Positions 4,769 through 33,618 of a stretch of DNA of 36,209 nucleotides are shown here, one piece after another. Below the pieces are notes generated by a model that searched no databases, was not told the origin of the DNA, and was given only the letters and a program-made list of their open reading frames with translations. The first letter of the stretch is position 1. Every line of letters begins with the position of its first letter. The stretch is taken from positions 1 to 36,209 of IMG/VR virus record IMGVR_UViG_3300017771_000042. One strand, given 5' to 3'. Source of the stretch: a virus. The translations under genes were made by a program, and so were the position numbers.

Positions 4769-5242
4769 TTAAGTTATAGGTCCTCCTCCTACCCAAGCAT
4801 CACAGGATCTAGCACCTGCACACTTAAACCAGAAGAATTCACAGAACCCTATATTTGATTGTTTTACAATTTTTTCTCCTTGTTCCCCAATAGCCTTAGC
4901 TATCTTTTTAAGAGTACTTGGCTTTTGATTAAAAGCCGAACAATTACTACATCTAGAAGTTTTAGCATGCTCTACTGTAGTATCCCACATTTCAGCTTTA
5001 TCTTCCCAAAACTTTTTAGAGCCTTTTTCGTCTTCAGGATTTAATGGACCGTATCTATACTCTTTTACGGTTACGTTTCTACTCAAAGTATTAAGATCTA
5101 AGTCAGTAATAGAGTCCATAGGTTTATTTTTTTTAAACCTCATCTCTTTTTCTTTTCTTAAAGCAGCAGGAGTGTTGTTTAGCCCATAGTCTGAAAGTTT
5201 ACCTTCTATGACTAATTCTTTAATTACGTCTTTTAGTTTCAT
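4769..5242 (-). CDS. Tagged Cys-rich protein, possible zinc fold
   Basis: 157 residues from the ATG at 5242. I prefer this start because it forms an ATGA overlap with the upstream stop and places MKLKDVIKELVIEGKL, a tag-like sequence, at the N-terminus; an in-frame ATG five codons earlier is less likely. The body carries TVKEYRYGPLNPED, then Cys98-x2-Cys101, then Cys134, Cys141 and Cys147 within an aromatic segment (GFCEFFWFKCAGARSCDAW). The cysteine spacing suggests metal binding. I recall this domain from marine T4-like genomes without a known role. If the tag is cleaved after VIE, the mature protein begins at Gly14. Confidence 0.75.
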   Translation of the reverse strand: MKLKDVIKELVIEGKLSDYGLNNTPAALRKEKEMRFKKNKPMDSITDLDLNTLSRNVTVKEYRYGPLNPEDEKGSKKFWEDKAEMWDTTVEHAKTSRCSNCSAFNQKPSTLKKIAKAIGEQGEKIVKQSNIGFCEFFWFKCAGARSCDAWVGGGPIT

Positions 5243-6021
5243 TTTTGTCCTTTCCAAATTTCACCTCTTCTACATCTAACTACTGCCCCTGAAGCATAAG
5301 CTGATGGCCAGGTATCATATTTACGTTTAGCTATTCTAGTACATCTATCGTCTTTTTCTTCTAGAGTGTTTTTATTTTGCATTTCAGCTATAGTACCTAC
5401 AGTTAGGTTACGTATATCCTCTTTAGTTACTTTTTTATATCCAGATCCGTAAGGTGCTGCTTTACCATCTTGAGGGTCAGATGTTTCAGTATATTGAGTT
5501 ACCTTGGGTACTTTAGATCTCATTTTATCTTTAGGGTCACTAAGTCTAGCTCCTCTTTCTTTAGCATCTTTAGACATTCTCCCTTTAACTAAATTACCTG
5601 ATTTAGTAAAGTAATGTCCTGCTGGAGCTCCTTTTGTTTCTTGCTTTAGTGCATTACCTGCTTTTTTAGCATCTTTATATGCATTAGAGTTTTTATGAGA
5701 AGATTTTTTTCCTGCTTTTTTCTTAGCATTAATATTAGCCCAAAGGCCTTCTTTCTTAACTGTTGCTTTTTTTGTATTTTTCACGACTGTCTTTCCTTTA
5801 CTCCCTGCTTTCTTTTTCTTTGCAGCAGTAGCGGCTCTTTGGCCTTTAGTTAAACTCTGTGCTTTTGCTTTTGGTAAACACCTGTCAGGGTTCTTTTTAT
5901 TTTTAGAAGTACCGCAAGGTCCTGCTATATTACCAGAAGAAGAGATACGAACCCATTTCTCTTTTTTAAACCAGTCTCTTAAAGACTCTAATGTAATATT
6001 TTTTACTTCACTACTGGTCAT
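5239..6021 (-). CDS. Lys-rich, histone-like phage protein
   Basis: 260 residues from the ATG at 6021, chosen because it makes a TAATG overlap with the upstream stop; a longer in-frame reading would run back through that gene. Residues about 15-40 contain WVRISSSGNIAGPCGTSKNK, followed by NPDRCLPKAKAQSLTKGQRA and a long Lys/Ala/Gly-rich stretch (about 65-145). The GPCGTS...DRCLPKAKA signature is a recurrent phage domain of unknown function. Near the C-terminus are two more cysteines (DDRCTRIAKRKYDTWPSAYASG and VRCRRGE). The composition suggests binding to packaged DNA or RNA, which is inference. Confidence 0.78.
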   Translation of the reverse strand: MTSSEVKNITLESLRDWFKKEKWVRISSSGNIAGPCGTSKNKKNPDRCLPKAKAQSLTKGQRAATAAKKKKAGSKGKTVVKNTKKATVKKEGLWANINAKKKAGKKSSHKNSNAYKDAKKAGNALKQETKGAPAGHYFTKSGNLVKGRMSKDAKERGARLSDPKDKMRSKVPKVTQYTETSDPQDGKAAPYGSGYKKVTKEDIRNLTVGTIAEMQNKNTLEEKDDRCTRIAKRKYDTWPSAYASGAVVRCRRGEIWKGQK

Positions 6022-6383
6022 TATTGTCCTATAGTTTCTGAATGCATCATTAACATTCTTATTACAATTCCTGCCATTATACCAAAAATTATCCATAAAG
6101 CTCTGTTAACTCCTGCTTTCCAGCTTTGAAGTTCATTTAACTTACTTAAATTATCAGCATAAAGCTCAGCTCTAGATTCATGGTATATACGACTTTCAGT
6201 ATTCTTATTAGTATTTACTATGACCCCATCGTCAGGATTAAGTAACGTACGTTTTAAATCTGATACGTCCTCTTTCATTTTTTGAAAATCATTAGCCATC
6301 TGCTTTAACTCTCCATTCGGCATGTGAGTTTTAACATGTTTTATTTCTGCTAATACAGATTCAAGTAAATCTTTTTGGGTCAT
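6021..6383 (-). CDS. C-tail-anchored coiled-coil membrane protein
   Basis: 120 residues. The N-terminal region (about 1-50) is amphipathic and contains SVLAEIKHVKTHMPNGE, then LKEDVSDLK-type heptads. A single hydrophobic segment at about 95-113 (ALWIIFGIMAGIVIRMLMM) ends near the C-terminus, so the bulk is likely on one side of the inner membrane. Size and topology are compatible with a holin-like or membrane-anchored accessory protein, but there is no diagnostic motif. A TATTTATA element lies 14 bases upstream of the ATG. Its stop overlaps the next gene's start by one base. Confidence 0.68.
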   Translation of the reverse strand: MTQKDLLESVLAEIKHVKTHMPNGELKQMANDFQKMKEDVSDLKRTLLNPDDGVIVNTNKNTESRIYHESRAELYADNLSKLNELQSWKAGVNRALWIIFGIMAGIVIRMLMMHSETIGQ

Positions 6384-6411: not shown

Positions 6412-6990
6412 TTATTCTAAACGTTTACGTACTAAGGTAGAATATTCTAAAACTTTTTTAGTAATAGTTTCCTCGTATTGTTTTTTATTATGTTTCCAAT
6501 CTTCTACGTCACCTTGCTCAGTAACAAATGTATCAACTTCAGATATTTTATCTTTTAACCATAATTCTAAATCATATAAGAAGCCTTCCATATTATTCTG
6601 CATCATTTGCTTCTCATACTGTTCAAACAGTCCTGCTTTCCTTAAAGAACTTTCGTATTCAACTGTACAAGGATCAAAACAAAAACCATGAATACGGTAC
6701 ATCTTTTTAGCTAAATGGTGTCTTAAAGGACCCCCGCATTTAGGACAAGTAAGTGGTAATCTTGATGCTGACTTAGCTTTATCTAGCTTAGTTATATTCT
6801 GCTTAAGACCATTTTTTATAGTCCAAGTTTTGCCATTTTCTTCCCATATGTCTCCCTCCGTATGGTGTTCAGAAGATTTTCTGTACCCAAGTTGGGTTTT
6901 TGTTTTAGCAGTAAAATCTTTTTTAACTAAGTTTCTTACCCTTTCAACGTCTGATTTTTTAAACTCTTTTTTTAGTAAAGATTCACTCAT
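6412..6990 (-). CDS. Zinc-ribbon-like phage protein
   Basis: 192 residues. A Lys-rich N-terminal helix is followed by HTEGDIWEENGKTWTIKNG (about 43-61). A four-cysteine cluster comes next, Cys82-x2-Cys85 (CPKC) and Cys104-x3-Cys108 (CFDPC), consistent with a zinc ribbon. A long charged helical C-terminus (about 110-192) completes it. I remember similar proteins in marine T4-like genomes, with no assigned role. The start overlaps the stop of the HAD-type gene by eight bases. It could bind nucleic acid or be a structural adaptor; the sequence does not decide. Confidence 0.72.
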   Translation of the reverse strand: MSESLLKKEFKKSDVERVRNLVKKDFTAKTKTQLGYRKSSEHHTEGDIWEENGKTWTIKNGLKQNITKLDKAKSASRLPLTCPKCGGPLRHHLAKKMYRIHGFCFDPCTVEYESSLRKAGLFEQYEKQMMQNNMEGFLYDLELWLKDKISEVDTFVTEQGDVEDWKHNKKQYEETITKKVLEYSTLVRKRLE

Positions 6991-7528
6991 AACCTAACTC
7001 TTTTAATTTTTCTAATACATGGTTAACGTTTCCGTCTTTACATCTAATAGCTATACCGCCTTTAGAAGCCCATTCATTTATATTTGATTTTTTATCGTCT
7101 ATTAATATACTATTTTCATTTGCGTATCTCTGCTTATCTTTTGAATATGCAAAAATAACTTTTGGTTTTGGATTGAGGTTATTTTTAACCCATAAATTCT
7201 TACCGAGTCGAGAATTGTTATCTCTAGAAGGAGAAGTAAGTAAATGTGGTCTATAAGGAGAAATAAAATTCCATAACTCTTTACCTTGGGGCATAAAACC
7301 CATACCCACCCAAAATCTTACACCTACTTCTACATCTACAAGATTCCAAAAAGCAGGTAAACCTTTTTGCTTCTCATATTCTTGTGGATGCATACCAGTA
7401 AAATGTTCAAACCTTCCTTCAAAGTTAGTTAAAACTCCATCCATGTCGCAATAAATTTGATATGGAGGTTTTTCTTTTTGTTCTGGGATAGGGTAAGCTT
7501 CCAATAAGTCTACTATACTTGTATTCAT
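6983..7528 (-). CDS. HAD-superfamily 5' nucleotidase-like phosphatase
   Basis: 181 residues. HAD motif I is D28-M-D30-G-V-L (YCDMDGVLTNF) with the nucleophile Asp28. Motif II is Thr/Ser near 98-99 (LLTSPSRDN), motif III a Lys near 120-123, and motif IV Asp144-Asp145 (SILIDDKKSN). This layout matches the 5'(3')-deoxyribonucleotidase-like phosphatases common in phages, which dephosphorylate nucleoside monophosphates; exact substrate unknown. The N-terminus (MNTSIVDLLEAYP) carries an LLE sequence before the fold begins near residue 23, so a short tag-like extension is possible. The start shares an ATGA overlap with the 557-residue gene, suggesting joint expression in a nucleotide-related set. 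Confidence 0.82.
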   Translation of the reverse strand: MNTSIVDLLEAYPIPEQKEKPPYQIYCDMDGVLTNFEGRFEHFTGMHPQEYEKQKGLPAFWNLVDVEVGVRFWVGMGFMPQGKELWNFISPYRPHLLTSPSRDNNSRLGKNLWVKNNLNPKPKVIFAYSKDKQRYANENSILIDDKKSNINEWASKGGIAIRCKDGNVNHVLEKLKELGYE

Positions 7529-9198
7529 AACCTTTGTTTTATTCCTAATGCAGGTAATCTTTTTCTCATTAAGTTTAAAATATTTTCATAATCATCTTTA
7601 GGAAGATTTTGATCATCAAAATATTGTTTAACTACGTCTGCAAAAGGACGTTTTTCTTTTTTAGCACGAAAATACATTCCTTGAATATTCGCATCAACTT
7701 CTTTTGCTAATTTAAAATAATCTCCTTTAGGTAGTGCTCCAGTTTTTACTAATGCTCTTACTAGTGAATCATCATCCATATATTTACCTGATTTAAGGTT
7801 ATCAGAATCACTATGGGTAAGATGTTCTATTTCATGTCTAACTATATCTTTTAAAGTAAAAGCTATATCTTTGAATGCATCAGGTACTTCTTTAGGGTTG
7901 TACGAGACTATAACTCTTATACTATCATTCTGTTCTCCGGTTTCATCATAATCAGCATCACCATCAACAGCAAAATATTCGACTGAGCCGGTAGGTATAA
8001 AATCACCAAAAACATTAAAATCTAAATCATCGGTTTCATAATTTTTATAAAAAGAAGTTTCGCCATTTTTTAAAGACTTAAACAAATCAGAGGATACTTG
8101 ATTACTTATTTTATCATATCTTCCTTCAGCCATAACCTTTTTTTTATTTTTGTAATTATCTTCCCAGTTTCTGAAAGTAATATTTCCTTTTAAGTACGCT
8201 TCTTTTTCTATCTCTAACAGATCATCATCTTCATTTGTATTAGTAGTACCAATATTACCTAATCTACCTTCTAAGTTTTGCATATGATGAATCATCTCGT
8301 GTACAAAAGATCTTACTATATCTTTAGGATGTCTACCTTCTACAAATAAAACTATTTCTTTTACATTAGGATCATAGTAAGCAGTTTTGCCAAAAAAGTT
8401 TGAGGCATTAGCTTCGTCTCTATTGATCTTTATTTCAGGTAAAGGAGTTACTTTCATACCCTCATCTATCATATACTCTAATACTGAAGCCATATATTTA
8501 GTATATTTAGGAACTTCAGATTTTTCAGTAACACTTTTTGAAAACGGAGCTTCAGATGTAAACATTTCCTCAAAAAGATTTTCCATCTTTTCGTTCATTA
8601 TTTCGGATATGATATTATCTTTAAGCATCTTTAATATAGATAGTAGTTCTTCTCTATTAAGTTGCGAAGGAAAGAAGTCTCTTAATTCATCTAAATTACC
8701 ACTTAAAGCAGCTTGTCTCAATTGTGAAGCCCTTACATTATTTCCTTTAGCAGCAGGTATAACTAAACCCTGTACATGAGGAGTATTTGTAAAAGTAGTA
8801 ATTCTTCTTAAATCGATTAAATCTTCTTCACTCCTTATTCCTGTAATAGCATAAAAGTTATCATTAGTATTTGCTTTAGCATAATCTTTAGCAGCAAACA
8901 TAGGATTCTTTTCACCATCCATAACTTCTATTCCAGGTAAATATTTAGAATATATTTTCCATATAGCTATAGATTCTCCTTTAGTTATTCCATTTCTTTC
9001 TCCTCCTCCAGGAAATACTATTACCTTATTAATTTTATCTACTATACTCTTTTTTCCAGAAAGAGAAGATGAACCAGCATCTTTATAATTATCTTTTGTA
9101 TATACCTGACCATTATGAGTACCGTTAAGTAAACTTTTAACGACTTCGAAATGACCTCTATGAGGTGGTTTAAATGCTCCTGGATATAATGCTATCAT
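7525..9198 (-). CDS. Nucleotidylyltransferase fused to two metallopeptidase-like domains
   Basis: 557 residues with three apparent modules. Residues 1-185 form a HIGH-type nucleotidylyltransferase (NMNAT/PPAT-like): YPGAFKPPHRGHFEVV gives HRGH at 13-16, and NVRASQLRQA near 154-163 matches the family's second nucleotide-binding motif. Residues about 230-345 contain H300-E-M-I-H304-H with Glu residues at about 329-333 (EIEKEAY), an HExxH zinc-peptidase pattern. Residues about 360-557 contain a second one, H455-E-I-E-H459, with KEVDANIQG at about 499-507. All expected metal-binding residues are visible in both. Fold assignment of the peptidase modules is inference. Substrates are unknown. It is far longer than a stand-alone nucleotidylyltransferase. 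Confidence 0.8.
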   Translation of the reverse strand: MIALYPGAFKPPHRGHFEVVKSLLNGTHNGQVYTKDNYKDAGSSSLSGKKSIVDKINKVIVFPGGGERNGITKGESIAIWKIYSKYLPGIEVMDGEKNPMFAAKDYAKANTNDNFYAITGIRSEEDLIDLRRITTFTNTPHVQGLVIPAAKGNNVRASQLRQAALSGNLDELRDFFPSQLNREELLSILKMLKDNIISEIMNEKMENLFEEMFTSEAPFSKSVTEKSEVPKYTKYMASVLEYMIDEGMKVTPLPEIKINRDEANASNFFGKTAYYDPNVKEIVLFVEGRHPKDIVRSFVHEMIHHMQNLEGRLGNIGTTNTNEDDDLLEIEKEAYLKGNITFRNWEDNYKNKKKVMAEGRYDKISNQVSSDLFKSLKNGETSFYKNYETDDLDFNVFGDFIPTGSVEYFAVDGDADYDETGEQNDSIRVIVSYNPKEVPDAFKDIAFTLKDIVRHEIEHLTHSDSDNLKSGKYMDDDSLVRALVKTGALPKGDYFKLAKEVDANIQGMYFRAKKEKRPFADVVKQYFDDQNLPKDDYENILNLMRKRLPALGIKQRL

Positions 9199-9200
9199 AT

Positions 9201-9785
9201 TTATAAATCTTTGGGAAGAGTTTCATCTTCTAAGTCAAATCCGTGATCGTCAACTCCACATACCGAATCAGCAAGTTTTTTAAGTTCTTCTTTTGAATTA
9301 ATAGTAGTCACACTTTCTACAGTTACGTTTTTACCATCGGTTATAATACTGAAATTTTTATTCCAATTAGTAACCGCTCTTTTACACATACCGTTTTTAG
9401 CTACTGAAAAGTGCATAGGATTTTCTACTCCTTCTACAGCATTTAAATAATAAGCAATTTTATTACTATCATACTCTTGTTTAAATTTTATATCTTCATT
9501 ATCCACAGCTGCCTGTTCAGGATCATCGTCAAAAACATAATCCATTATCTCTAATCCTTCTTTAATTTTTACTTTATGTAAATAATAAGGAAAAGGTATT
9601 TTAGATTCCATATAAAATATTCCTATAGCTCTATCTAAAGCTTGTGCTATAGTACCTACGTGAAAAGTTGGATCACCAGAAAAACTACTCTTTCTATCCG
9701 ACACATGGTAACTAATTTCAGGTAACACTTTAGAAGGTGCTTTTATTCCCGTTTTTTCAAGTAATATTTTAGATAGTTTTATCAT
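9201..9785 (-). CDS. Tagged protein, possibly ADP-ribosyltransferase-like
   Basis: 194 residues starting MIKLSKILLEKTGIK, a clear copy of the recurrent tag with LLE followed by Lys. After a short linker comes ISYHVSDRKSSFSGDPTF and then HVGTIAQALDRAIG (about 24-54). A Tyr-His-x-Ser/Thr strand followed by a loop and a helix is how many ADP-ribosyltransferase-fold proteins begin, but I cannot place a full catalytic triad, so the assignment is weak. T4 packages the ADP-ribosyltransferase Alt in its capsid by a similar N-terminal tag, which makes the combination worth testing. The start overlaps the kinase stop by ATGA. Confidence 0.72.
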   Translation of the reverse strand: MIKLSKILLEKTGIKAPSKVLPEISYHVSDRKSSFSGDPTFHVGTIAQALDRAIGIFYMESKIPFPYYLHKVKIKEGLEIMDYVFDDDPEQAAVDNEDIKFKQEYDSNKIAYYLNAVEGVENPMHFSVAKNGMCKRAVTNWNKNFSIITDGKNVTVESVTTINSKEELKKLADSVCGVDDHGFDLEDETLPKDL

Positions 9786-10717
9786 AAAAACGCTTGTACT
9801 TTTTGATCTATTTCAGCAGGAGATGAATGTTGTAGTAATTCTTGAAACGTAGGATTAAATACCATATCAGCAATACTATCTAATACTGCGTCATTATCTC
9901 TATCAGTATTAACTTTTTTATCTCTATACTTTTTAACTACATCTCTTAACTTATCTTCTCCAGGTCCAGTACCTATCTTTTGATAAGTTTTTAAGAAAGC
10001 TGTTTTAAGAGCTTTATCTTCTGATCTATTATCTTTATTCCAATCTACGTTTACTACAGCTTTGTTAAATTCTTGCTCTTCTTCTTGAGACATTACTACT
10101 GGTTTGAAGAAAGAGCTTTTACCTGCTCCTGTTTTTTCATTATAAGCTTTTAAGTAATCTTTTATTCCTGTAGTACCGTTTTTAGCTGCAGTATTAAATG
10201 CTTCTATTTCTTTTTTAAATTCTCCTCCTCTATCATTTACAAAAATAGAAAGATTACCTTTAAGTTTCTTTTTAAAGTCTCCTATCTTTTGATAAGCGTT
10301 TCTCCAAGTTAAAAAAACTGAAGAAGCAGGTATGTTTCTACCTCTTTGAAAGTTAGATATATAAGATATCATAGGATGAGTATACACCATAACCATATAT
10401 ACGTCATAACCGCCTTTAAGAAGCTTGTTTAAGTTTTCATCAAACTTAGCCCCTGATGCTGTAGTATCCCAAACTAGGCTAATTTTATCTTCTGCTGCTG
10501 CTAGTACGTCCTTCTCTACTTGACGACTGGCTGCCCCTAGATTGTTGAAGTACGGATGATCCTTGTCCTCTACGTATTTGTCTGGGTTGAATTGTGTTAG
10601 GCTGTCGAGGTTGAGTTTGTTGAGAAGGTACGACTTGCCTGATCCCGCTCCTCCTGCCATTATTACGGCTTTGGGTCGGTTGGTTTGTTCTGCCAATATT
10701 ATATCTGATAGTTTCAT
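9782..10717 (-). CDS. Tagged P-loop kinase, zeta-toxin-like
   Basis: 311 residues. The N-terminus MKLSDIILAEQTNRP is a tag ending in LAE. It leads directly into PKAVIMAGGAGSGKSYLLNK, a Walker A P-loop at about 22-29, then FNPDKYVED. DTTASGAKFDENLNKLL (about 84-100) and a basic segment with FQRGRNIPASS (about 123-133) follow. This order resembles zeta-toxin/AAA_33-type kinases, which phosphorylate small molecules such as UDP-N-acetylglucosamine; the substrate here is unknown. The first 78 codons overlap the lipoprotein gene in another frame and are visibly more GC-rich (CTC, AAC, GAC, GCG) than the remainder. No antitoxin-like partner is evident. Confidence 0.83.
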   Translation of the reverse strand: MKLSDIILAEQTNRPKAVIMAGGAGSGKSYLLNKLNLDSLTQFNPDKYVEDKDHPYFNNLGAASRQVEKDVLAAAEDKISLVWDTTASGAKFDENLNKLLKGGYDVYMVMVYTHPMISYISNFQRGRNIPASSVFLTWRNAYQKIGDFKKKLKGNLSIFVNDRGGEFKKEIEAFNTAAKNGTTGIKDYLKAYNEKTGAGKSSFFKPVVMSQEEEQEFNKAVVNVDWNKDNRSEDKALKTAFLKTYQKIGTGPGEDKLRDVVKKYRDKKVNTDRDNDAVLDSIADMVFNPTFQELLQHSSPAEIDQKVQAFL

Positions 10718-11111
10718 TACTTTTTAATCTTGGTTGTGTTCTTCCTCTAGGGCTGTTAACTCTAATTCTAGTTTTTGGTTTAACCGACGGTTTATAAGGT
10801 ATGTTATTATAAATAGGGCGGCGGACGTTCCAATTAAAGTAAGGCCACTGCCAACTGCTGTATCTAAAGTTCCAGTAGTTATTGTAGTTCCAACCGTACC
10901 AGTTATAGTTGTAATCCAAGAAATAGGATCTGTTGAAATCATAGGATCTATTAAAGTATTGACTACTGTAAGGGACTTGTATTGTATCTCCTGATTTATT
11001 AACTGCAAGTACGTGTTCAATATCATAACCTTTATTTTTTGTTATCAGAGTGTAACTCCCACAACTATATAAAGATAAGAAAATAAATACATATATCAAA
11101 CTTTTTTTCAT
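10485..11111 (-). CDS. Lipoprotein with Tyr/Asn/Trp-rich body
   Basis: 208 residues. Residues 1-16 are a lipoprotein signal peptide (MKKSLIYVFIFLSLYS) with lipobox L-Y-S-Cys17, so the mature protein should be lipid-anchored in the cell envelope. Residues about 50-95 are rich in Tyr, Asn, Trp and Phe. Residues about 105-208 are rich in Arg, Gln, Ser and Pro, ending GRTSSSRR. This build recalls small envelope proteins of Flavobacteria. An outer-membrane spanin-like lysis role or superinfection exclusion is possible. The start overlaps the nuclease stop by ATGA. The last 77 codons lie inside the kinase gene in a different frame, an unusually long overlap. Confidence 0.7.
   Translation of the reverse strand: MKKSLIYVFIFLSLYSCGSYTLITKNKGYDIEHVLAVNKSGDTIQVPYSSQYFNRSYDFNRSYFLDYNYNWYGWNYNNYWNFRYSSWQWPYFNWNVRRPIYNNIPYKPSVKPKTRIRVNSPRGRTQPRLKSNETIRYNIGRTNQPTQSRNNGRRSGIRQVVPSQQTQPRQPNTIQPRQIRRGQGSSVLQQSRGSQSSSREGRTSSSRR
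10724..11026 (-). CDS. Nested reading frame with one membrane segment
   Basis: An alternative frame inside the lipoprotein gene encodes 100 residues, or 72 from an internal ATG at 10942. The N-terminal part is low-complexity Thr/Ile/Gly, probably a shadow of the Tyr/Asn/Trp codons. The last 40 residues, however, look like a membrane helix (TLIGTSAALFIITYLI) followed by a charged helix (NRRLNQKLELELTALEEEHNQ). It stops six bases before the kinase ATG and in the same frame, a spacing typical of coupled genes. A lipoprotein and a membrane helical protein in overlapping frames recall spanin pairs, but chance is a serious alternative. Confidence 0.28.
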   Translation of the reverse strand: MILNTYLQLINQEIQYKSLTVVNTLIDPMISTDPISWITTITGTVGTTITTGTLDTAVGSGLTLIGTSAALFIITYLINRRLNQKLELELTALEEEHNQD

Positions 11112-11890
11112 ACTTTTACTGTAGTTGGGTAACTATTATAAATAGGTTCAGTATTTGGGTTTTCTAATTCGTATAATTTATAAATAAGTTTAAACAGTTC
11201 GAAATTTTTTTCAATCTCATCTATCTGTAGCAGCTTCCATCCTTTACCTTGTATAACTTTTTTCTGTTTTGACGGCCCTCTTGATTGTGCTTTTAGCCAA
11301 AGTATAGCAGTTCTATCAATCTTTATATCTCTACTCTCCTCAAGTCCTTTTGCGTAAGAGGCTAGTTGTAGATCATATGACTTATGTATACTGTTAGACG
11401 TTTTAATATCTATTAGCCACACTTCTCCGTTCATCTTACATACTATATCAGCTGTACCTGCAAACTTATGTTCGTCAGACCATACAAATTGTTCTGAAGA
11501 TATAAGCTCTGGTTTGTAAGTTTTCCAAAAATCAGCAAACTTAAGTATCATCTCCCAAACTATCTGGGAGTATTTAGCTCTACCGTAATCATCCATCCAA
11601 CTAACTTCTTTTCCTTCTACTAAGTCTTCAGCTGCTTCATGTACCTGAGTGCCTTCCTTACCTGCTTTACGCATAATAAGATCGGCGTTATGCCCAACGT
11701 CCTTCATCCATGTTTCGAAGAACTTATTCTTGGGCATGTATTGGAGTATAGTTGTTACGGACGGGTAATATACTCCTTCGCCTCTCTTATAGACTCTGCG
11801 GTCTAAAAAATTAATTTGCTTTAAATCAGGGTTAAAGTCAAGTCTTTTTTTCTCGTTTTGTTCGAGGATATTCATACCTTGTTTAATCAT
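11108..11890 (-). CDS. PD-(D/E)XK nuclease, RecB/Cas4-like
   Basis: 260 residues. Visible nuclease motifs, in order: G-T-Q-V-H84 (the RecB-type upstream His), FAGTAD148, WLID161-I-K163-T and Q175-L-A-S-Y179. This is the GxxxH, D, (D/E)xK, QxxxY order of the RecB/Cas4/MGME1-like exonuclease family, which degrades DNA from ends. It is the size of a stand-alone phage exonuclease. It lies directly after the primase with an ATGA overlap, suggesting a role in replication or recombination. The ATG at 11890 is preferred for that overlap; a second ATG five codons in is possible. Confidence 0.85.
   Translation of the reverse strand: MIKQGMNILEQNEKKRLDFNPDLKQINFLDRRVYKRGEGVYYPSVTTILQYMPKNKFFETWMKDVGHNADLIMRKAGKEGTQVHEAAEDLVEGKEVSWMDDYGRAKYSQIVWEMILKFADFWKTYKPELISSEQFVWSDEHKFAGTADIVCKMNGEVWLIDIKTSNSIHKSYDLQLASYAKGLEESRDIKIDRTAILWLKAQSRGPSKQKKVIQGKGWKLLQIDEIEKNFELFKLIYKLYELENPNTEPIYNSYPTTVKV
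11137..11144 (-). promoter_or_regulatory. TATTTATA inside nuclease 3' end
   Basis: Minus-strand CTATTTATA, 25 bases upstream of the lipoprotein ATG at 11111 but inside the nuclease coding sequence. Spacing matches the intergenic copies, so it could serve the lipoprotein and kinase. It also occurs by chance elsewhere in coding sequence, so support is weak. Confidence 0.25.
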
Positions 11891-12864: not shown

Positions 12865-13065
12865 TTATATTTCGTTATTTTGTAATAGATCTCCTATTGC
12901 AGCAGATACAGATTGGTAGAGTAGGGTTCTGTTATCAACATCTAAATAATCTTCTAATTTGTTAGTAATAGCTTCAGCTAATTTAATAACATCATTATCA
13001 GATAGGTTAAGTTCTTCTCTTAGAACATAATTTTTATTTTCGAGTATTATTTTAGATAACTTCAT
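12865..13065 (-). CDS. Tagged 66-residue small protein
   Basis: Starts MKLSKIILENKNYVLREELN, a nearly ideal copy of the recurrent tag. The rest is a short helical acidic domain (KLAEAITNKLEDYLDVD, then LLYQSVSAAIGDLLQNNEI). If cut after IILE, the mature peptide is about 57 residues, similar in size to small T4 internal proteins. It is not recognised otherwise. Its neighbour at 13082 has the same tag but an unrelated body, which is the pattern expected if the tag, not the body, is conserved. There is no Shine-Dalgarno sequence upstream. Confidence 0.7.
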   Translation of the reverse strand: MKLSKIILENKNYVLREELNLSDNDVIKLAEAITNKLEDYLDVDNRTLLYQSVSAAIGDLLQNNEI

Positions 13066-13081
13066 GATCTCAATTTAATTA

Positions 13082-13348
13082 TTAACTTACGTCCATAGGA
13101 TAGACTTCTGCGTCATATCCTTTTTTTCTTAAGGCATCTGCAATATCTTGAACTTCGTCTGAAAGATACATAGCCCTACGAGGTACTTCTAAACCTGTGA
13201 TCTTTTTAATCATTTGAATTGCTTTATCTTCATCCTCTCTGCTTCTTTGCTTTTCTCCATTTATAGAAATAGAATAAAGAGTACTACCAGGGTCGGTATA
13301 AGTTAAAGTAATGCTTTTATTTTCCAATATGATATCTGTTAATTTCAT
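13082..13348 (-). CDS. Tagged 88-residue small protein
   Basis: Starts MKLTDIILENKSITLTYTDP; the first eleven residues differ from the 66-residue neighbour at only two positions (Thr4 and Asp5), while the rest is unrelated. The body has a beta-like start (TLYSISINGEKQ) and a helical end (LSDEVQDIADALRKKGYDAE). Predicted processing after IILE would leave about 79 residues. The ATG overlaps the stop of the 45-residue basic gene as ATGA. Function unknown; a capsid-internal cargo role is inference from the tag. Confidence 0.7.
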   Translation of the reverse strand: MKLTDIILENKSITLTYTDPGSTLYSISINGEKQRSREDEDKAIQMIKKITGLEVPRRAMYLSDEVQDIADALRKKGYDAEVYPMDVS

Positions 13349-20859: not shown

Positions 20860-22371
20860 TTATCTATCGTTATGAGTTAAAATATTATTTGCATAGTAAA
20901 CATCATCAGTTTCTACATTTAAACTGTATATATTTATAAAGTTATCTTCAACATCAATTGAAGTTATTGTAACCTCATTTAAGTTTATATCTTGAAAAAT
21001 ATCTCCTACTTGTACTTGGTGTGCCCGTACTACTAACCATAGTCCGTTTCTTTTTACAACATGGTTGTGCTTACGAGTTGTAAGGAGCGCACCATTATTA
21101 AAATTATATATACCTCTAGTAGGAGTAGTAAAAAGTGTTGTAACTAAAGCAGTACTATAAGTACCATCAATATTATCTGAGCTCCAAGAGTATAAAGCTT
21201 CTTTACCTTCGTCTGAATCTGGTAAACCAGATATATTTCTAGAAAGGACAGGGTCCCCTATTTCTAAATTCTCTACAGCTACTGAAGAGCTTAAAGAGGT
21301 TGCGATCATGGTTCCTTCTACAACACTCAGTGTATCACACTCCGCCTGTGGATATGCTGCTGCTGAATATATCCAACAGGTGTCCTCAGACATATCCCCG
21401 TCACTAAAGAAACCAGACGAAATTTGACCAGAGCCTCCAGCGCTAGTATATAGTGTGGTAGAGGTTCCTATGTAAGACCCATAAAAGTAAACTGTAGTAG
21501 GGGAAGCAGAAGCACATGCTTGGATACAATTGGATGAACCTACCCCAAATATAGTATCTGAGTTCCTAGGTACAGGACTGTTAGGTGGGGTACTAGGTGG
21601 TGTTCTACTAGGTGATATACTAATAGATGGTGTTCTAGTAGGTGATACAGGTGGTGTCTCTGATGGTGTTCTAGATGGTGTTGCACTGTTAGGTGGTGAA
21701 TTCGGTGGTGAATTCGGTGGGCTGTTGGGTGGGCTATTAGGAGGTGTTCTACTAGGTGTTCTAGTAGGCGATACTCCGGGTGTAACTGATATAGATGGAG
21801 TGATAGATATAGATGGAGTTACACTAATAGATGGTGTTCTACTAGGAGTTACAGTTACGGTGGGAGTTACACTAATACTGACTGTTGTTGTTGGTGTTAT
21901 AGATGGTGTTGCACTAGTACTGGGAGTGATTGATATAGTAGGAGTAACGGTTGCGGTTACCGATGGGGTAACAGATGGAGTCACTGATATTGTAGGGGTT
22001 AGTGATGGGGTAGCACTCCGGGTAACTGTTGGGGTTGGGGAGGGGGAGGGCGGTATATAGGTAAATGAATTTGTACAGTTACTTACGCTCTGAAAGATAA
22101 ATGTATCGTTTCCTGAAGCTGCACTTATGGTAAGTCCAATTCCAGCATTTAGATTAGCTGTAGATACTACATCTGTAAACGTTACTCCGTCTACTACAAT
22201 ATTTTCTAGTTTTGAATCAGTATTGTCAGAAGGATCGTGTATAAGGAAACCTGAAAGCGTTCCTGCTCGAGTTGCATTATCTTTAGTTCCTAAGTATACC
22301 TCAAAAGGACCTGCATCGGATATATTTCCGAGTATATTATTTCTTGCTCCTCTAACTAAGTAAACTGCCAT
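20860..22371 (-). CDS. Tail protein with Ser/Thr-Pro repeats and Hint domain
   Basis: 503 residues. Residues 1-105 are a beta-rich head (VYLVRGARNNILGNISDAGP). Residues about 105-270 are SVTPS/SRTPS repeats with five PPNS copies. A middle domain (about 275-345) has several Cys. From about Ser349 there is a Hint (intein/hedgehog-like) domain: SVVEGTMIATSLSSSVAVEN (block A, Ser in the nucleophile place), LLTTRKHNHVVKRNG (block B) and VYYANNILTHN (blocks F/G). Only Asp-Arg follow the terminal His-Asn, with no Cys/Ser/Thr at +1, so splicing is unlikely, but N-terminal cleavage or ester transfer is possible. Start has a TATTTATA element 11 bases upstream. Confidence 0.82.
   Translation of the reverse strand: MAVYLVRGARNNILGNISDAGPFEVYLGTKDNATRAGTLSGFLIHDPSDNTDSKLENIVVDGVTFTDVVSTANLNAGIGLTISAASGNDTFIFQSVSNCTNSFTYIPPSPSPTPTVTRSATPSLTPTISVTPSVTPSVTATVTPTISITPSTSATPSITPTTTVSISVTPTVTVTPSRTPSISVTPSISITPSISVTPGVSPTRTPSRTPPNSPPNSPPNSPPNSPPNSATPSRTPSETPPVSPTRTPSISISPSRTPPSTPPNSPVPRNSDTIFGVGSSNCIQACASASPTTVYFYGSYIGTSTTLYTSAGGSGQISSGFFSDGDMSEDTCWIYSAAAYPQAECDTLSVVEGTMIATSLSSSVAVENLEIGDPVLSRNISGLPDSDEGKEALYSWSSDNIDGTYSTALVTTLFTTPTRGIYNFNNGALLTTRKHNHVVKRNGLWLVVRAHQVQVGDIFQDINLNEVTITSIDVEDNFINIYSLNVETDDVYYANNILTHNDR
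21560..22060 (-). repeat. Ser/Thr-Pro codon repeats in Hint protein
   Basis: About 500 bp of imperfect short repeats encode SVTPS, SITPS and SRTPS pentads. The plus strand shows the mirrored ggtgtt/gatggt pattern. A similar shorter tract is at about 19679-19845 in the next gene. The repeats suit slippage and may differ in number between related phages. Confidence 0.8.
21685..21744 (-). repeat. Five 12-bp PPNS repeats
   Basis: Five tandem 12-bp units encode PPNS five times. Two adjacent copies share CCACCGAATTCA, while others use different synonymous codons, so the array mixes recent and older copies. Confidence 0.8.
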
Positions 22372-32883: not shown

Positions 32884-33618
32884 CTATAGGTTTTTTAGCA
32901 TTTTTGAAAGACTTTCCGAAGAATTGACGGCTTTTCCTGAACTAGAAGTGGTTTTTTGGCGTCTAGGCTTGGTAGTCCCACCGTTTTTCTTCCAAATATC
33001 GTATTCGACCTTAGAGGCTAGGTAGTCTGCACTGTGGAGTACGCTAACAATAGAGGTTTTCTGTCTTGAACTCTCTTGATGACTGAAGAAGTAAGCTTCA
33101 TTAGCTTTATCAAACACTCCATCGTGTAGTCTGATGCCTAACCACTCTTTTTGACTAACCTTTAACCCGAACTTCTGTAGTATGTACAGTGATCTATCGG
33201 GAATGAGCATAAAATCTAAGTCTGAGTTGTAAGTATACATCTCTGATAGTTTATCCTGACGCCATTTATCGGTCTGAGGTTGATAGTTCTCTTTATCTCC
33301 ATCACCTAGCTTACCTAAATCATGGAATAAAGCGGCAAAGACAAGTTCTTCTTCGGTGTAATCTACTGTTCCACCCATCTCTTGATATAACCTAGACTGC
33401 TTTACCGCATATTCCACAACTCTATTAACATGATCGACGTATCCCCCAGCAAAAGCATTATGATGCCAAGTTTTACCACTAGCAGGAGCCATTACGTAAG
33501 TTTCCTCAATGTGAGAAATAAGTTTCTTCACCGAGTCTTTACGATCTCCTATGTAAGTATCTACTATTTTGAGATGCTTCTCGAAATTACTTTGAATCTG
33601 TTCGGCCGATAATGACAT
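32884..33618 (-). CDS. HD-domain phosphohydrolase
   Basis: 244 residues. HD-superfamily metal motifs are visible: HHNAFAGGYVDHVNRVVEYA with His63, then ALFHDLGKLGDGDKENY with His99-Asp100, and later LHDGVFDKANEAYF and SVLHSADYLASK. This arrangement (H...HD...H...D) is typical of nucleotide or cyclic-nucleotide phosphohydrolases. A role in nucleotide metabolism or in removing a host signal nucleotide is possible; the substrate is unknown. A low-complexity Lys/Ser end (KTTSSSGKAVNSSESLSKML) follows. Its start is preceded by an extremely AT-rich 119-base spacer. Confidence 0.83.
   Translation of the reverse strand: MSLSAEQIQSNFEKHLKIVDTYIGDRKDSVKKLISHIEETYVMAPASGKTWHHNAFAGGYVDHVNRVVEYAVKQSRLYQEMGGTVDYTEEELVFAALFHDLGKLGDGDKENYQPQTDKWRQDKLSEMYTYNSDLDFMLIPDRSLYILQKFGLKVSQKEWLGIRLHDGVFDKANEAYFFSHQESSRQKTSIVSVLHSADYLASKVEYDIWKKNGGTTKPRRQKTTSSSGKAVNSSESLSKMLKNL

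Follow-up and report, generated by a model that had tools for sequence, protein, structure and literature searches.

Can more than two hundred nucleotides of phage DNA encode the end of one protein and the beginning of another at the same time, and, if so, which of the two reading frames was there first? This question is raised by a locus in the IMG/VR virus record IMGVR_UViG_3300017771_000042. Positions 1 to 36,209 of this record form the window, i.e., the whole stretch of DNA that was analysed (36,209 nt). A preliminary description of this DNA had claimed a 233-bp overlap between a lipoprotein gene and a kinase gene at 10485–10717. The coordinates proved exact, and both ORFs lie on the minus strand in different frames. 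The locus comprises the following features:

11108–11890 (−): upstream exonuclease (phrog_298, 5e-43); it overlaps the lipoprotein gene by 4 nt and serves as a synteny anchor
10485–11111 (−): lipoprotein ORF, 208 aa, with a signal peptide, the lipobox SLYSC at residues 13–17, an Asn/Tyr/Trp-rich body and an Arg/Ser/Gln/Pro tail
9782–10717 (−): zeta-toxin-like P-loop kinase, 311 aa (Pfam Zeta_toxin, PezT by profile, structure matches)
10485–10717 (−): dual-coding stretch, 233 nt; the lipoprotein tail of ~77 residues together with the kinase tag, the P-loop and the first ~77 kinase residues
10685–10717 (−): kinase N-terminal tag MKLSDIILAEQ, a probable capsid-targeting peptide inside the dual-coding stretch, with a pattern common to neighbouring proteins
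10485–10487 (−): lipoprotein stop codon TAA, within the kinase codons GAT AAA

The lipoprotein frame is the +2 frame of the kinase and begins at the third base of the kinase codons. The shared part makes up the first quarter of the kinase gene and the last ~77 aa of the lipoprotein. The exonuclease occupies the same place in relatives and in Flavobacterium phage immuto. Other overlaps between neighbouring genes within the window measure 1–76 nt. The nominal 76-nt same-strand overlap of 5239–6096 and 6021–6383 (both −) probably reflects a start of 5239–6096 that is set too early, and an internal ATG at MTSSEVKN fits better. Gene callers that limit same-strand overlap will mis-set one of the two genes of the lipoprotein/kinase pair. 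Judged from sequence comparison, it is highly probable that the 233-nt stretch codes for two proteins, that the kinase frame is the older one, and that the lipoprotein was extended into a pre-existing kinase gene, i.e., that the overlap arose by overprinting.

The composition of the stretch is the first indication of its double use. The GC content is 0.46 in the overlap and 0.31 in the remaining part of the kinase gene. The rise had been described as coinciding exactly with the overlap; the difference stands, but the boundary is less sharp than claimed, as the lipoprotein gene upstream is also richer (0.39–0.41 around 10740–10920). At the third positions of kinase codons, G or C is found in 35 of 77 cases in the overlap and in 38 of 233 in the rest (Fisher p = 7.6e-7), and the correlation of kinase-frame codon usage with that of the window is 0.02 in the overlap compared with 0.96 elsewhere in the gene. 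Among the codons singled out earlier as rare outside the overlap, CTC (3/77 versus 0/233) and GAC are indeed over-used there, as are TTC and TAC, but GCG is not distinctive (1 versus 1). The claimed return to AT-rich codons past the lipoprotein stop is seen throughout the family, in which GC3 falls within a few codons of it. Among the window ORFs that were checked, the only other such stretch lies in 32884–33618 (−), where GC3 is near 0.44 over 77 codons (about codons 135–220); the list of ORFs contains none of at least 60 aa that overlaps it.

The persistence of the overlap was studied in relatives. IMG/VR was scanned with the kinase and its relatives, and after the removal of near-copies at 98% identity, 115 distinct kinases were obtained. 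In 100 of these 115, both ORFs are open on the same strand in different frames, with an overlap of 158–254 nt, most often 236 or 239 nt; in the other 15, the overlap is absent. In 62 of the 100 overlap relatives, the lipoprotein ends with a TAG at the same distance from the P-loop, two codons beyond the TAA of the window, but the same TAG also occurs in 10 of the 15 non-overlap relatives. The signal peptide, lipobox and Cys of an envelope lipoprotein are present in 96 of the 100; of the remaining four, two are truncated, one (L069) is frame-shifted, and one narrowly fails the pattern. Sequence errors in metagenomic contigs are possible, as L069 suggests, yet they cannot give rise to an open frame that relatives share.

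The non-overlap relatives fall into two sets. In ten of them (L003, L004, L061–L065, L072, L087, and L224), there is a lipoprotein-like gene with its own tail, and its end coincides with the kinase start or lies a few bases from it. In the other five (L035, L049, L164, L165, and L167), the exonuclease is followed directly by the kinase, with no lipoprotein there. The own tails of the ten are unrelated to the overlap-encoded tail. Nevertheless, they are basic: in nine of them, the net charge is +10 to +15 and cysteine is absent, while the overlap-encoded tails have a mean net charge of +13.5.

These relatives also bear on the direction of the event. The preliminary description proposed that the lipoprotein tail had extended into an existing gene, or the reverse. 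In the reverse history, the lipoprotein with its tail would be older, and the kinase start would have moved upstream, adding the tag and the P-loop region. Codon usage in the overlap does fit the window better in the lipoprotein frame than in the kinase frame (r = 0.37 versus 0.02), which is usually read as a sign that the kinase is newer. However, the overlapped kinase stretch contains the P-loop AVIMAGGAGSGKS of a widespread kinase family, homologous to that of zeta toxins and in register with them from residue 10, so it cannot be a late addition. The lipoproteins without an overlap carry unrelated tails, no homologue of the overlap-encoded tail was found outside the overlap, and the lipoprotein itself belongs to no family that could be recognized. 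The reverse order is therefore very improbable, and the first of the two proposals, the extension of the lipoprotein into the kinase gene, is the one that the evidence upholds. The codon-usage criterion points the wrong way here because the kinase gave up its synonymous freedom. This serves as a warning that the criterion can mislead when it is used to identify the newer frame.

Whether the second frame is under selection can be judged from the synonymous choices of the kinase. When the codons of each kinase were redrawn synonymously from its own usage outside the overlap, the second frame contained 8.8 stops on average, and it was open in 0 of 50,000 resampled sequences. Natural overlap sequences have no second-frame stop in the first 75 codons in 90 of 100 cases. 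Stop counts in the controls were 10.0 for the +1 frame of the overlap stretch and 9.2 for the +2 frame of the next 75 codons. By alignment position, kinase GC3 in the overlap set is 0.36–0.61 for the greater part of the shared stretch and drops to ~0.2 near the lipoprotein stop; at the same codons of the non-overlap set, it is 0.13–0.25 (the decayed L035 and L072 were left out). Which third base is chosen depends on what it encodes in the other frame. Where T at a four-fold site would make a second-frame stop, its frequency is 0.00–0.02 in the overlap versus 0.36–0.70 in the rest of the gene. Where T precedes GC or GT and would encode cysteine, the values are 0.00–0.01 versus 0.33–0.39, but T before CT (serine) is hardly altered (0.39 versus 0.43). 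Additionally, A is rare where lysine would replace glutamine in the second frame.

Substitutions tell the same story. In 38 pairs of overlap genomes, with sites treated as independent and a simple expectation, kinase-synonymous changes that make or remove a lipoprotein stop occur at 0.03 of the expected number (O/E). The ratio is 0.04 for changes involving cysteine in the second frame, 0.35 for lysine, 0.35 for aromatic residues, 0.84 for other replacements, 1.12 for silent changes, and 0.51 in total. In two control stretches of the same genes and at the same codons of non-overlap genomes, O/E for stop and cysteine is 0.83–1.12. Unconstrained change in one frame, which had been named beforehand as an argument against dual coding, was thus looked for and not found, with stop and cysteine changes at 0.03 and 0.04 of expectation. 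Together with the resampling result (0/50,000), these values indicate selection on the second frame beyond chance openness. The tail is most likely translated and selected, mainly for composition: it is stop-free, cysteine-free, basic, and disordered. The avoidance of cysteine fits an exported protein, and the need to keep the frame open cannot explain it. The weak constraint on other replacements (0.84) means that the composition is kept rather than the exact sequence; conservation of individual tail residues beyond composition is modest.

The same data weigh on two explanations that require no second protein. A DNA or RNA element at the kinase 5′ end, such as a regulatory structure or a packaging or recombination site, could constrain synonymous sites, and the lowered total of kinase-synonymous change in the overlap (O/E 0.51) is what such an element would produce. 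This has very little chance of being the cause: the reduction lies almost wholly in second-frame stop, cysteine, aromatic, and lysine changes, with silent changes at 1.12; the constraint vanishes in relatives without the overlap; and the RNA fold of the stretch in the window is not unusual (z = −0.35). It is scarcely credible that the second frame is open merely through GC-rich or host-like codon usage at the kinase 5′ end (recent transfer, expression ramp) with no tail made, since, although GC is raised in the stretch and such a shift is general in overlapping genes (PMC6195259), the bias follows second-frame meaning (T for cysteine versus T for serine), is not seen at these codons in genomes that lack the overlap, and comes to an end near the lipoprotein stop.

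Genomes without the overlap act as a natural experiment. In the kinase tree, L003 and L004 are found together with the window, and their lipoproteins end just before the kinase start. Their kinases are 92% identical to that of the window in the overlap stretch and 95% elsewhere. Nevertheless, 38–41 of 60 synonymous codons differ in the stretch (63–68%), compared with 42 of 214 (20%) in the rest, and the second frame contains 16–17 stops. Had the stretch merely drifted as fast as the other codons of the gene, fewer synonymous differences would be expected; the excess calls either for selection that brought codon usage back or for recombination that introduced the 5′ part of a close relative not represented in the sample. 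When each of the 15 non-overlap genes is compared with the overlap relative nearest to it, the synonymous difference is always higher inside the stretch than elsewhere. In pairs of overlap genomes, by comparison, synonymous difference is lower in the stretch (mean 0.258 versus 0.334; lower in 66 of 81 pairs). L035 and L072 are intermediate, with a GC3 of 0.35 and only 4–5 second-frame stops. The codon bias of the kinase is thus absent or fading where the overlap is absent.

In the kinase tree, which was built without the overlap columns and whose root is uncertain, there are 10 changes of overlap state, all forced by well-supported branches. By parsimony with this uncertain root, the simplest reading is an old overlap that was retained for a long time and lost about ten times. 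Mosaic genes, in which recombination has joined a 5′ part to the remainder of a different kinase gene, could mimic losses and inflate the count. One finding that had been named as speaking against overprinting is a relative whose lipoprotein frame is closed by a stop ahead of the kinase start. Such relatives do exist, but they look like losses: they are scattered on the tree, and L035 and L072 are partly decayed. Since there were about ten losses and the kinase persists in the genomes concerned, natural sequences allow one to measure what double coding costs and how fast a gene recovers from it.

What kind of proteins share this DNA? The lipoprotein body is rich in Asn, Tyr, and Trp and variable in length, and Cys beyond the lipobox occurs in only 2 of 96 lipoproteins. 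Pfam and PHROG profile searches gave no match to known families, and none was found in phage records. The AlphaFold model predicts a disordered chain after the signal peptide, including the tail; with a mean pLDDT of 49, it is too poor for a structure search. The tail may be inferred to form a flexible basic segment at the cell envelope. A 100-aa ORF at 10724–11026 (−), which lies in the kinase frame inside the lipoprotein gene and ends 7 nt before the kinase start, was also considered as a gene. It matches no family, and an ORF of at least 80 aa exists in that frame in only 29 of 100 relatives, so it is probably a by-product of the Asn/Tyr/Trp-rich composition.

The kinase matches Pfam Zeta_toxin (PF06414) at 4.5e-12 (46.3 bits against a curated cut-off of 22.3), and there is a weak profile match to PezT (E 0.037). 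Structural matches are zeta toxins/PezT, PNK, and PSTK, with modest TM-scores. The P-loop kinase fold in the N-terminal half is shared with zeta toxin and PezT kinases. However, whole-model TM-scores are low (0.3–0.4), PNK and PSTK score similarly, and this kinase has a long unmatched C-terminal helical part and a tagged N-terminus. No epsilon-type antitoxin is present here, and the upstream gene is not epsilon-like. A zeta toxin with the lipoprotein as its immunity or antitoxin partner was considered and rejected: five relatives keep the kinase without a lipoprotein in the usual place, so the lipoprotein is not obligatory.

In its model, the kinase has a low-confidence N-terminus and no N-terminal membrane helix. 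It starts with MKLSDIILAE; the tag is present in most relatives, and similar starts are found on several neighbouring proteins. In T4-type capsid-targeted internal proteins, such a tag ends in (L/I)xE, and the phage has a gp21-type prohead protease. A T4-type (gp21-type) prohead protease (Peptidase_S77/PF03420) is encoded in all 6 large related records that were searched. The shared tag pattern and the protease in related records suggest that the tag is probably a capsid-targeting peptide and that the kinase is a protein packaged in the head. The form M(I)KLSxIILE, which is like T4 capsid-targeting sequences, occurs on unrelated proteins at 9201–9785, 9782–10717, 12865–13065, and 13082–13348 (all −), and less clearly on 69–1466 and 6983–7528. 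Proteins with this shared N-terminal tag may form a set that these phages inject.

The phages themselves are related to Flavobacterium phage immuto (baseplate protein 58%, exonuclease protein 72%), and this kinship suggests flavobacterial hosts. The group consists of uncultured marine phages, and related contigs measure 100–190 kb. Phage immuto shares the exonuclease and baseplate genes and has a different gene at the place of the lipoprotein and kinase. None of the known phage isolates carries the lipoprotein/kinase pair: the kinase has only distant matches (27%) in HTVC008M and Melnitz phages, and the lipoprotein has none. No relative of the kinase was found in bacterial genomes, and no report of the pair was found in the literature. 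Two other genes of the window can be noted. In the product of 7525–9198 (−), the N-terminus (YPGAFKPPHRGHF) resembles a nucleotidyltransferase and is joined to a part in which the motifs HEMIHH and HEIEH recall metallopeptidases; its positional counterpart in immuto carries the annotation NadR/NMN adenylyltransferase. The gene at 20860–22371 (−) contains a long Pro/Ser/Thr repeat and a C-terminal part resembling a Hint (hedgehog/intein) domain (CDTLSVVEGTMIATS...ILTHN).

With overprinting as the favoured explanation, the course of events may be pictured as follows. The upstream lipoprotein gene would have been prolonged beyond its original end, through the kinase 5′ region in the second frame, the lipoprotein thereby acquiring a basic, disordered tail of about 77 residues, free of stops and cysteine. 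The sequences show that both frames are open and conserved, that the synonymous choices of the kinase are spent on the lipoprotein frame, and that this ends where the overlap is lost. The tail is presumed to be translated and to give the anchored lipoprotein a flexible polycationic segment that works at the cell envelope. Synthesis of the kinase would start separately, from an initiation site within the lipoprotein gene, and the N-terminal tag of the kinase would direct it into the head. As selection on the tail is mainly for its composition, such a tail need not come from the kinase gene: ten relatives have one of their own, encoded ahead of the kinase start. It is also conceivable, but rather unlikely, that the overlap is kept because both products must be made together, i.e., that a head-packaged, injected zeta-like kinase and an envelope lipoprotein serve in one takeover or superinfection-exclusion step, with their amounts coupled by translation through the kinase start.

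Overlaps formed by terminal extension are already known. Genes A and C of phiX174 have de novo overlapping C-terminal extensions, and other terminal overlaps have been described (PMC8227390). As in phiX174, an upstream gene was extended into the start of the next gene in another frame, and novelty is inferred from distribution. The present phages, however, are large and tailed and are under little pressure to keep their genomes compact, what was added is a basic tail of low complexity, and there are natural relatives without it. The spanins provide another comparison, with overlapped or embedded genes such as Rz/Rz1 and those of P2, and with a periplasmic cysteine in the o- or i-spanin in 507 of 528 systems (PMC6139136). 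There too, one stretch of phage DNA is read in two frames, for a lipoprotein and for the product of the adjacent gene, and spanin function is also found in separated genes. Here, the partner is a P-loop kinase instead of an i-spanin of the inner membrane, the lipoprotein gene lies upstream, and the overlap covers the lipoprotein tail, not the signal peptide. A spanin pair was rejected as an identification for this locus: the partner is a kinase, there is no TM segment, and there is no periplasmic Cys.

The length of the overlap also sets the pair apart. In a survey of 338 prokaryote genomes, no real co-directional overlap of >60 bp was found, and long co-directional overlaps were usually annotation errors; the conserved co-directional terminal overlaps of two unrelated proteins reached 56 bp at most (PMC2478687), compared with ~236 nt here. 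Overlaps shared across phage genera or families measure up to 112–185 nt (PMC7017920). As long co-directional overlaps are usually annotation errors, one of 236 nt that is kept in 100 distinct relatives is unusual. The composition of the lipoprotein tail (Arg, Ser, and Pro, with disorder) is, by comparison, typical of overlapping genes in general (PMC6195259). The pair offers a case of a second frame selected mainly for composition, with no stop, no cysteine, and a basic, disordered product, and among the known terminal-extension overlaps it is unusual in being so long, in having been kept by a diverse group, and in coming with natural controls.
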